The notes under the pieces were generated by a model. It saw only the letters and a program-made list of their open reading frames with translations, was not told the origin of the DNA and made no database searches. The translations under genes were made by a program, and so were the position numbers. From Pseudanabaena sp. PCC 6802 (lineage in GTDB: Bacteria; Cyanobacteriota; Cyanobacteriia; Pseudanabaenales; Pseudanabaenaceae): a DNA stretch of 64,000 nt. Of this stretch, positions 3,229-36,905 are shown one piece after another. Numbering within the stretch: the stretch's first letter is position 1; every line of letters starts with the position of its first letter. The stretch is from NCBI RefSeq assembly GCF_000332175.1, contig NZ_KB235914.1, forward strand, positions 503,966 through 567,965, in the 5' to 3' direction.

Positions 3229-3341
3229 TATAGCGCTTTTCAATCGAGAACGAGTTTCATTTTTGGGGTGAAAGGTTTCCACCCCTTCTTGGGGGCAAAG
3301 CCCCCAAACCCCCTACTCTTTCCGATCTGAAAACCGCTATA
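3229..3341. repeat. MITE-like element, family A copy 2 (short form)
   Basis: 113 bp between TATAGCG (3229) and CGCTATA (ending 3341), with the GGGGGCAAAGCCCCC stem in the middle. It ends 14 bp before the ATG of the next glycosyltransferase, so the leader of that gene is largely repeat sequence. Confidence 0.85.
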
Positions 3342-12923: not shown

Positions 12924-13538
12924 ACACCCACCACACGCTGAGAGAGCATTACTTTGCGTTAGATATCTAACACATTTTGTTCGATTTTCAACATTCAGGA
13001 TTCAAGACCGACGATCCGCAAACGCAGAAACAATAATTTAAACTGTTGCATATAGCATCCAGATCCACTTTTGATGTGGGGATTTGCAGTAAATCACAGC
13101 GGTTTTTTCTATAGGACTTAAACAATAACTCATTTGTTCCACATAAATTTATCAAAAAACACAATATTGTGAATTATTTGACTCATGCTATAGCGGTTTT
13201 CAGATGAAAACGAGAAGGGGGTTTGGGGGCGTTGCCCCCAAGAAGGGGTGGAACCCCTTCACCCCGTCAATAAAACCTGTTCTCAATTGAAAAACGCTAT
13301 ATGCAAAGAAAAAAATAATTACGCTTGAGATTTTGGCCTCTTGTAGCAGCAGGACAAGTTAGAGGTAAAGCTACGTAGTAGCTAAAGTAAAAGGGGGTAA
13401 CTGAACAGAATTTGGTATTAAAGAGATAATAGCGTCTCTATTGTAACTAGATCGTATCCGTTCTCACAAATGTTACACAAAAATCGAATTTCTGTTGCCA
13501 AATTAACTCTCCCTTCGATCGGTTGAAGTTATCGCAGC
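12924..13538. other. Intergenic region, 615 bp
   Basis: AT-rich sequence between two minus-strand genes. It holds one family A element (13189-13301). The right part contains the 3' flank of the kinase gene, with AGAGATAATAGCGTCTCT (13423-13440) able to form a small hairpin, a possible terminator for the kinase. No gene is seen. Confidence 0.6.
13189..13301. repeat. MITE-like element, family A copy 3 (short form, reversed)
   Basis: 113 bp from TATAGCG to CGCTATA, opposite orientation to copies 1 and 2. Core stem GGGGGCGTTGCCCCC, followed by the second stem AAGGGGTGGAACCCCTT. Flanked by TA on both sides. Confidence 0.87.
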
Positions 13539-15683: not shown

Positions 15684-15934
15684 AGGTTAGCATGCGAAAA
15701 CAGCCGTTACGTAAAGTGCTCGAGCAGCTAACAGATCGACCTCAGGTGCCAAGCGACCTGTTGAAGCTTTGGGGGAGCTAATATGATGTGACCTTATACT
15801 CCGCTTGAAGTTCCACAACCTGCCTCCAGATAAGCATTTACATTTCGCTTAATCTATATCCTGACAATAGATCGTCAATAACTAACCCAATGAATATACT
15901 CCTACAATTAATTCATGACAAGTAACGATCTAAC

Positions 15935-16032
15935 TGTAGCCGTAGACAGATCTGTTAGGACAGGGGGTGTGGGGGCTGCGCCCCCACGCAGGGTTTTCCC
16001 CCCTGCACCCCGTCCTAAGCCTATTGGCTATA
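15935..16032. repeat. MITE-like element, family B copy 1
   Basis: About 98 bp. Left end TGTAGCCGTAGACAG, right end GTCCTAAGCCTATTGGCTAT; the inner 10-base arms CTGTTAGGAC / GTCCTAAG frame a double hairpin with GGGGGCTGCGCCCCC. The second copy is at 28268. Confidence 0.8.
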
Positions 16033-16046
16033 GCTATATTTGTGGA

Positions 16047-16558: not shown

Positions 16559-16735
16559 TATAGCGATCCTAAATCATTTACGAACGGGGTGCAGGGGTGA
16601 AACCCCTGCGTGGGGGCGCAGCCCCCACACCCCCTTTTTCACAAATCACGTACGAACGGGGTGCAGGGGTGAAACCCCTGCGTGGGGGCGCAGCCCCCAC
16701 ACCCCCTTTTTCACAAATCATTTGTGATTGCTATA
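16559..16735. repeat. MITE-like element, family C, with an internal 72-bp tandem duplication
   Basis: Ends TATAGCGATCCTAAATC and GATTTGTGATTGCTATA-like form imperfect inverted ends. Inside are two near-identical 72-bp units (16579-16650 and 16651-16722), each with a GCAGGGGTGAAACCCCTGC hairpin and a TGGGGGCGCAGCCCCCA hairpin. The right end resembles the left end of family D. Confidence 0.8.
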
Positions 16736-28155: not shown

Positions 28156-28267
28156 AAAGTTGCGATCTCGGGATAGTAATTCTGCGGTATTCGTACAACC
28201 TCAACATCAGGCTATACGATCGTGAATATACCCATCTCACAGCGATAAATGACTACTACGAGAGAGC

Positions 28268-28365
28268 TATAGCCGTAGATAGATCTGTTAGGACAGGGGG
28301 TGTGGGGGCGTAGCCCCCACGCAGGGGTGGAACCCTTGCACCCCGTCCTAAGCCTATTGGCTATA
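28268..28365. repeat. MITE-like element, family B copy 2
   Basis: 98 bp bounded by TATAGCCGTAGATAG and ATTGGCTATA, inner arms CTGTTAGGAC / GTCCTAAG. Core hairpins TGGGGGCGTAGCCCCCA and GCAGGGGTGGAACCCTTGC. Better preserved ends than copy 1 at 15935. Confidence 0.82.
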
Positions 28366-28410
28366 GCTATAAAAAAAGTGGTAAGCCCTAAAGAAGCATA
28401 GAAAAAGTTT

Positions 28411-28488: not shown

Positions 28489-29200
<712 letters not shown>

Positions 29201-31604: not shown

Positions 31605-31718
31605 TACAGCGGTTTTCAGATCGGAGGTGAGTAGAGAGGGTAGGGGCGTTGCCCCCAGGTCGGGGTGGAACCCCTTCACCCCGTCAATAAAAACTGTTCT
31701 CAATTGAAAAACGCTATA
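31605..31718. repeat. MITE-like element, family A copy 5, inside the cox operon
   Basis: 114 bp, ends TACAGCG and CGCTATA, reversed orientation. It fills most of the 169 bp between the ctaC stop (31733) and the ctaD start (31563). If the genes are co-transcribed, the mRNA carries its hairpins between subunits II and I. Confidence 0.85.
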
Positions 31719-34975: not shown

Positions 34976-35088
34976 TATAGCGGTTTTCAGATGAAAAAGA
35001 GAAGGGGGTTTGGGGGCGTTGCCCCCAAGAAGGGGTTCCACCCCTTCACCCCGTCAATAAAACCTGTTCTCAATTGAAAAACGCTATA
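34976..35088. repeat. MITE-like element, family A copy 6, abutting a start codon
   Basis: 113 bp, TATAGCG to CGCTATA, reversed orientation. It ends 2 bp before the ATG at 35091. No Shine-Dalgarno lies in its right end, which is the inverted repeat itself. Confidence 0.87.
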
Positions 35089-35090
35089 CT

Positions 35091-35945
35091 ATGGCAATGC
35101 TCTTAACTGGAATTGTTTTAAGTGCTCTAATGATAGGATTAGCAGTTTGGATAGCTGCGGGGAGTTGGCATCGCGAGACTGCTCGGTTAGTCGAGCAATC
35201 GATCCAAAAAATCCTTCCTCAGAGCGATCGCGAGACAAAAACAGTCAGCTTCCAAGATTTCGATCCCCTCCCCGAACCAGTAGCTAAATACTTGCGCTTA
35301 GTTCTCAAAGAAGGACAACCCTATATTCGCTCGGCTTCTCTTACGCAAGCAGGCGAATTTCGGATCGGTAAAGATGAAAAGGGATGGAAGCAGTTTGAGG
35401 CGAAGCAGTACTTCGCGGCAAATCCACCAGGTTCGATCTGGGATGCCAATATTCGCATGGCTGCCGCGATCGCCGTACGGGTACGCGATGCCTATACAGA
35501 CGCGCAGGGATCGATGCAGGCAAAGATCCTGGCGCTTATTCCCGTGGTGAACGATCGCGGCAAGCCAGAACTGAATGCAGGCGCGCTGCAACGGTATTTA
35601 GCTGAGTCGGTCTGGATGCCAACCGCGCTAATGCCAAGCGATCGCTTAAAATGGAGCGAGATAGATCGCCACAAAGCCCTAGCAACTCTGACGGATAGCC
35701 AAACAACTGCGAGCTTGGAATTTCATTTTAACGATATCGGAGAAGTTACGGGCGTGTTCGCGCCAGCACGCTATCGTGAAGTCAATGGCAAATACGAGCC
35801 GACTCCTTGGGCAGGCTATTTCTATAACTATCAGGAAAGGCACGGCATGAGAATTCCCACCGCAGGATACGTGGAATGGCAGTTAGGCGATCGCAGTTTC
35901 CCATACTGGAAAGGTAACATCACCGAAGTAAAGTACGATTACTAA
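35091..35945 (+). CDS. Membrane-anchored protein of the DUF6544 type
   Basis: 284 residues. One N-terminal transmembrane helix (LLTGIVLSALMIGLAVWIAAG) precedes a soluble domain with LPEPVAKYLRLVL, QAGEFRIG, PPGSIWDANIRM and a C-terminal GYVEWQLGDRSFPYWKGNITEVKYDY. These segments match a conserved family of unknown function (I believe DUF6544, earlier DUF6920). The ATG at 35091 has no Shine-Dalgarno because a repeat element ends 2 bp before it; an ATG at 35097 has the same problem. Expression must therefore depend on signals in or before the repeat. Confidence 0.62.
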   Translation: MAMLLTGIVLSALMIGLAVWIAAGSWHRETARLVEQSIQKILPQSDRETKTVSFQDFDPLPEPVAKYLRLVLKEGQPYIRSASLTQAGEFRIGKDEKGWKQFEAKQYFAANPPGSIWDANIRMAAAIAVRVRDAYTDAQGSMQAKILALIPVVNDRGKPELNAGALQRYLAESVWMPTALMPSDRLKWSEIDRHKALATLTDSQTTASLEFHFNDIGEVTGVFAPARYREVNGKYEPTPWAGYFYNYQERHGMRIPTAGYVEWQLGDRSFPYWKGNITEVKYDY

Positions 35946-35954
35946 CTTAGCAAC

Positions 35955-36905
35955 TCACCTTACGCGGATGTCTGAGAGGGTTTCAGGTTTCAGGGAATGC
36001 CACGCAGCAAATGCCTGCTTCAGTGCCTGAAGGTACAACTTCGATTTAAGCGCAAAATGATTTTGCTTAGACTGAAGCTTCAATACCTCCAATTTGATAT
36101 AGCGGTTTTCACTTGAGAACGGGTTTTATTTTTGGGGTGAAGGGGTGGAACCCCTTCTTGGGGGCAACGCCCCCAAACCCCCTGATCTTTCTGATCTGAA
36201 AACCGCTATATAACCCCACAATGCAGCAAAGAAATGATTCGTCTGACTGTTAATCGTCTGTGTAGGCGACTTTGACAGACTCACATTCTGCTTGAGCGAT
36301 TTGTGGTATTCTTCAACTTTCCATCGTTTTTGATAGATTGTTGTGATGCGCTCGTATGTCAAGCTCGTATCACTTGTCGCCAAATAGAGAATGCCCGTAC
36401 TGCCATCTTCGTTTGTGAAGATTTGTTTGGCTAACAATAAAGGGAATTCTACCCCTTCAAGGTAGATTGACTTAATGCATCCTCTTTTGATATCCACAGC
36501 CTCGACGCAGACATACTTGCCCTTCCTTTTGTCATCTTGACTCAGTGCTACCTTGCGATTGCTTTTGAGTGGCATGATAAAATCTTTCTTCAGTTCTTGC
36601 TTGATGAAATTCATATTCTCCGCTGCTGCATACCAAATATCGTTGAGTACATAACTAAACTCAACTTGATTTTGCACTGCTTGCTTTAGCATTTGCCGAT
36701 AATGCTCGTTTTTCGTGATTGTACTTCGTCTCTTAGGTTTCCCTGTCTTTTCGTCTTTGTAGATCTCTGTCTTCGTCACCAACACGAATCCGATTGGCAA
36801 CGATACTCCTTGGCTATGATACAAGAGGCTGATGAAGTTTATGCCTTTGACTTGTCTATCTTTGCTGTGGTCGTAATGCCAGCAGATATGCTCATTAGTT
36901 ACTTG
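35955..36905 (-). pseudogene. IS4/IS701-type transposase, 5'-truncated and split by a MITE
   Basis: The minus strand reads ICWHYDHSKDRQVKGINF (about 36890), VLNDIWYAAAENM with the second catalytic Asp, and YQKRWKVEEYHKSLK, a perfect Y-x2-R-x3-E-x6-K (YREK) motif. Frame then runs into the family A element at 36098-36211 and is shifted. Removing 112 bp (element plus one TA) gives GYIKLEVLKLQSKQNHFALK and continues to a stop at 35955, the normal C-terminus of this family. The N-terminal third with the first catalytic Asp is missing. So the gene was broken at least twice. Start boundary (about 36905) is approximate. Confidence 0.85.
36098..36211. repeat. MITE-like element, family A copy 7, inserted in the transposase gene
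   Basis: 114 bp including one TA on each side; the element proper is TAGCGG...CCGCTA at 36100-36209. The flank order is TTGA-TA-[element]-TA-TAACC, consistent with insertion at a TA that was duplicated. It is the only copy here with a pre-insertion reading frame to prove mobility. Confidence 0.9.

Follow-up and report, generated by a model that had tools for sequence, protein, structure and literature searches.

A TA-flanked 109-bp MITE with the ends of an IS630-type element interrupts a YREK transposase remnant in Pseudanabaena sp. PCC 6802

ISY100, an IS630 element of cyanobacteria, inserts almost only at TA, duplicates this dinucleotide and moves by a cut-and-paste mechanism (PMC2170065). 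Cyanobacteria also carry MITEs, among them Nezha (Zhou et al. 2008) and those of Microcystis (Kaneko et al. 2007), both as cited in PMC10969869, which likewise mentions MITEs that disrupt genes, for example the mcy genes of Anabaena. Here we describe a MITE family of Pseudanabaena sp. PCC 6802, whose genome was examined as 5.62 Mb in 6 contigs, taking as our starting point a copy that lies inside a transposase gene. The window is the 64,000-nucleotide stretch of contig NZ_KB235914.1 that contains this copy, and coordinates refer to it unless a contig is named. Our main reading, to which we give a probability of roughly 93%, is that this MITE was moved in trans by the IS630/Tc1-mariner transposase of a 1018-bp IS with the same ends, and that its insertion at a TA of the YREK gene introduced an in-frame stop.

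The element spans positions 36100–36208 (109 bp), runs from TAGCGGTTTTCA to TGAAAACCGCTA and lies between two copies of TA, at 36098–36099 and 36209–36210, which the flanks and the reconstruction of the empty site identify as the duplicated target site. It is short, has no coding capacity and ends in terminal inverted repeats, which comparison of the ends places at 36100–36121 on the plus strand and at 36188–36208 on the minus strand. The original prediction had described a TA-flanked repeat of 110 bp within a minus-strand transposase gene; the location and the flanks stood, while the length proved to be 109 bp.

On the minus strand the host transposase reads ...HFFAALWGY and then enters the repeat at 36208. 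The MITE together with one TA measures 111 bp, which is exactly 37 codons, so that the frame downstream of the insertion is the same as that upstream. The uninterrupted frame through the element is ...FFAALWGY-IAVFRSERSGGLGALPPRRGSTPSPQK*NPFSSENR-YIKLEVLKLQSKQN, with a single TAA, within the element. The MITE thus ends translation of the host gene by an in-frame stop; there is no frameshift, contrary to the earlier view that the frame shifts on entry into the repeat. This copy contains at least one stop in all six combinations of insertion phase and orientation.

Removal of the element and one TA (111 bp) yielded ...FFAALWGYIKLEVLKLQSKQNHFALKSKLYLQALKQAFAAWHSLKPETLSDIRVR*, which remains open to the stop at 35955, as had been foreseen; the predicted sequence of the empty site is TTTGATATAACC. 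Deletions of 110, 112 or 113 bp did not restore the frame, and a deletion of 114 bp did so with the loss of one residue. The 112 bp originally given for the element plus one TA therefore fail to restore the gene, and with 111 bp being 37 codons, the argument that chance would hardly produce such a fit, 112 not being divisible by three, falls as well. That the restored frame is beyond chance follows instead from an ungapped alignment to 11 relatives, a gained profile match and a genome-wide set of 40 near-full-length MITE copies, of which 39 are bounded by TA at either end.

The 11 relatives, all uninterrupted, come from Pseudanabaena and its family, Ignavibacteria, Chloroflexi, archaeal MAGs and others, and their alignment with the rejoined host protein shows no gap where the two parts meet and is conserved to either side of this point. 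The closest among them, from Pseudanabaena 'Roaring Creek' (66% identical), reads HFFASLWGYVKLEVLKLNSKLNHFALKSKLY, and its junction region is FFASLWGYVKLEVLKLNSKLNHFALKSKLY. Rejoining moved the end of the match to NF049921 from position 284 to position 315 of 318 and raised its score from 218 to 248 bits, which, in a protein whose N-terminus is absent, is just below the cut-off of 250. The comparison of the restored C-terminus with relatives, proposed together with the original prediction, thus bore it out: family members did not end before position 36211, and their C-termini matched the restored frame.

The main part of the host gene occupies 36211–36896 on the minus strand, as defined by profiles and by alignment to the relatives. 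The C-terminal part split off from it, IKLEVLKLQSKQNHFALKSKLYLQALKQAFAAWHSLKPETLSDIRVR*, lies at 35955–36097 on the same strand; it was recovered as a separate match that reads through one TAA, as well as in the profile match of the rejoined protein. The best profile of the gene is of the IS701/IS4 type (NCBIfam models), the match to Pfam DDE_Tnp_1 (E = 7.6e-12) exceeds its cut-off, and the YREK spacing Y-2-R-3-E-6-K is present within IYQKRWKVEEYHKSLKQ, all in agreement with the assignment of the host transposase to a YREK family distinct from that of the MITE. About 80 N-terminal residues are absent: homology starts at residue 9 (about 36896). The gene has no complete catalytic triad, as the first aspartate, found in the DDT/DDS motif of relatives, was lost with the N-terminus. 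The gene is present in a single copy in the genome. Judged from these sequence comparisons, it is a 5′-truncated remnant of an IS701/IS4-type (YREK) transposase and not an intact member.

The 40 near-full-length copies of the MITE are 92–100% identical, and their outer flanks are unrelated. A count of the exact 13-bp MITE end gave 335 for the whole genome, against 0 for its reversed control. One copy (L156, G000:C5:2925915-2926028) is 100% identical to that at 36100–36208 and lies 2.4 Mb away from it, which suggests recent movement. The product of the gene interrupted by L156 belongs to a large protein family, and another copy (L157) interrupts the gene of an HSDR_N-domain protein. After rejoining, both gene products matched many relatives through the junction (residues 4–266 of 267 at 49% identity in one case and 2–201 of 205 at 53–55% in the other), and the two loci constitute, by these alignments, independent empty-site tests of the family. 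Exact empty sites were thus reconstructed at three copies by removing the element and one TA. The assertion that the repeat is proved to have been mobile is fair, but what supports it is the alignment at empty sites together with the TA flanks seen throughout the family, not the frame.

Within the window, further copies of the family were found by sequence match at 3231–3339, at 13191–13299, at 31607–31716 (diverged) and, in the orientation opposite to that of the 36100 copy, at 34978–35086 (34976–35088 with two more bases on each side). The last of these stops a few bases from the ATG of an ORF of 284 amino acids (35091–35945), forming its leader; this copy and the one at 36100, inverted relative to each other and separated by about 1 kb, flank the ORF. 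A long variant with the same ends and an extra palindrome in the core occurs at 277–429 and 28940–29092 (275–431 and 28938–29094 with two more bases on each side), as well as elsewhere (L218–L223); it is 44 bp longer, the further palindrome being nested in the first hairpin. At the other extreme are 26-bp units, TAGCGGTTTTCATCTGAAAACCGCTA, which amount to two MITE ends fused. They were found at five unrelated TA-flanked sites (L212–L216; G000:C5:230616, C5:1732880, C5:4474910, C5:97622 and C1:261916), in opposite orientation at some, and either were transposed as such or are remnants of longer copies after internal deletion.

The genome has 16 matches of the IS630 type (DDE_3), and exact copies of the MITE ends directly enclose just one of them, L011. 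This IS630 element (L011 1008-2025) is 1018 bp long, has perfect 23-bp inverted repeats and is flanked by TA on both sides. It shares with the MITE only about the outer 20 bp, and the left terminal repeat of the MITE differs from the ends of the IS at 3 of 22 positions. The IS630 elements that are most abundant in this genome, those of the group L012–L022, were considered as partners of the MITE and rejected, as they do not lie between MITE ends. The family at 36100 therefore has the features of an IS630/Tc1-mariner MITE, namely a TA duplication, a high copy number with unrelated flanks, and the ends of an autonomous IS630 element. The TA preference and IS630/Tc1-mariner type that had been proposed for the repeat thus found support in the TA/TA flanks of 39 of 40 copies and in the same-ended IS630 element of this genome.

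The transposase of L011 is encoded in two frames that overlap; the N-terminal frame has helix-turn-helix domains, the C-terminal frame has the DDE domain, and both match NF033545 (IS630). A run of nine A residues (A9) is located at position 396 of the element, inside the overlap. A relative (G011) has a 67%-identical IS630 transposase with seven full matches, and the same ends were present around six among the matches listed. In the one G011 copy examined (L228), the length of 1018 bp, the two-frame layout and the A9 run are all as in L011. The 13-bp MITE end is also found in other genomes of the family, up to 124 times (G013). Conservation of this layout and of the A9 position in two genomes suggests programmed frameshifting, which we predict for both elements. 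The activity of L011 would hinge on it, since its transposase, encoded by the sole complete copy of the IS in this genome, is split over two frames. Contig C5 starts inside a second copy of the IS630 element (G000:C5:1-110), the first being at C5:1425190. The second exact IS end (C5:88-110) did not qualify as an independent copy, as no more than 4 differences separate the first ~680 bases of its flank from those next to L011. This half copy has the appearance of a duplicated stretch truncated where the contig ends, or of an assembly effect.

In the mechanism that we propose, the transposase of the low-copy 1018-bp IS630 element would recognize the MITE ends TAGCGGTTTTCA, excise the MITE and insert it at a TA, which would thereby be duplicated. 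One MITE copy landed in the IS701/IS4-type (YREK) transposase gene, adding 37 codons and an in-frame stop, such that the host protein terminates within the element. We infer that the L011 enzyme was the actual mover, and by analogy with ISY100 the chemistry would be cut-and-paste. It is also conceivable, though we consider it the less probable case, at odds well short of even, that the mover was an IS630 relative other than L011, for instance one since lost from the genome. A single complete same-ended IS and the half copy at the end of C5 stand here against 335 MITE-type ends, and intact multi-copy versions occur in relatives. However, L011 keeps its DDE domain, its perfect 23-bp ends and the two-frame layout of the multi-copy G011 elements, and may well be active.

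The interior of the MITE contains a GC-rich core (36134–36183) that is predicted to fold, as single-stranded DNA, into two hairpins (z = -6.95) enclosed by the paired MITE ends. The same core occurs between different ends elsewhere in the window (15925–16038, 16571–16714 and 28258–28380) and in other genera at 77–88% identity (G035, G037 and G005). A strict core pattern was found 187 times in this genome and 0 times in 243 others drawn from the phylum, a draw that excluded two genomes with looser matches (G035 and G037). Pair 7/23 of the pattern is A-T or C-G in 16 of 16 among the matches listed, and, with one exception among these 16, pair 25/43 is T-A or G-C. These two freely varying stem pairs switch together between subfamilies (A-T with C-G, T-A with G-C), which possibly reflects one inherited double change per subfamily and gives no more than a hint of a conserved structure. 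That the core is a module kept as a structure in several genera and in MITEs whose ends differ, with the 26-bp copies as the smallest units that an IS630 enzyme could move, is a speculative proposal that we regard as unlikely.

The strong GC-rich double hairpin, and its recurrence between different ends and in further genera, could be read as signs of an extragenic palindrome, or of a product of recombination or duplication, that a rearrangement placed in the gene. The fixed ends, the constant length of 109 bp, the paired TA that borders 39 of 40 copies and the unrelated flanks speak against this explanation, and the exact restoration of three genes by removal of the element and one TA refutes it for the 109-bp unit, leaving it a very small probability overall. 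The notion that the host YREK transposase itself moved the MITE has nothing beyond co-location in its favor and is improbable in the extreme, given hundreds of MITE ends elsewhere, duplications of TA only, ends that match the IS630 element, and a host gene that is single-copy and truncated. Movement of the MITE by an enzyme other than the host transposase, as originally proposed, is thus what the ends point to.

A literature search with most subscription papers outside it returned no paper on a Pseudanabaena MITE of this kind, a result that argues only weakly for novelty; a search of a plasmid collection gave no match, and the left end of the MITE had no exact match in viral contigs. The event is ordinary in kind, and its mechanism is already well known. 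With three reconstructed empty sites and, in the genome, a partner transposase whose element has the same ends, the MITE family is directly testable. Its closest parallel in mechanism is ISY100 of Synechocystis (PMC2170065), with which it and its IS630 partner have in common the TA target and its duplication, an IS630-type DDE transposase with an N-terminal helix-turn-helix region, terminal inverted repeats and a cyanobacterial host. ISY100, however, is autonomous, whereas the element at 36100 is a 109-bp passenger, and the IS630 partner differs from ISY100 in that its transposase is split between two frames, which overlap around an A9 run. The Nezha and Microcystis MITEs, as cited in PMC10969869, resemble the present family in being short and non-coding, with inverted-repeat ends and many copies, and in that movement in trans has been inferred for them; this likeness is one of description, and the present family has the ends TAGCGGTTTTCA and a GC-rich double-hairpin core. 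The MITEs in the mcy genes of Anabaena, as mentioned in the same source, likewise interrupt a coding sequence, but the interrupted gene here is a truncated transposase remnant, so that little or no phenotype would be expected.
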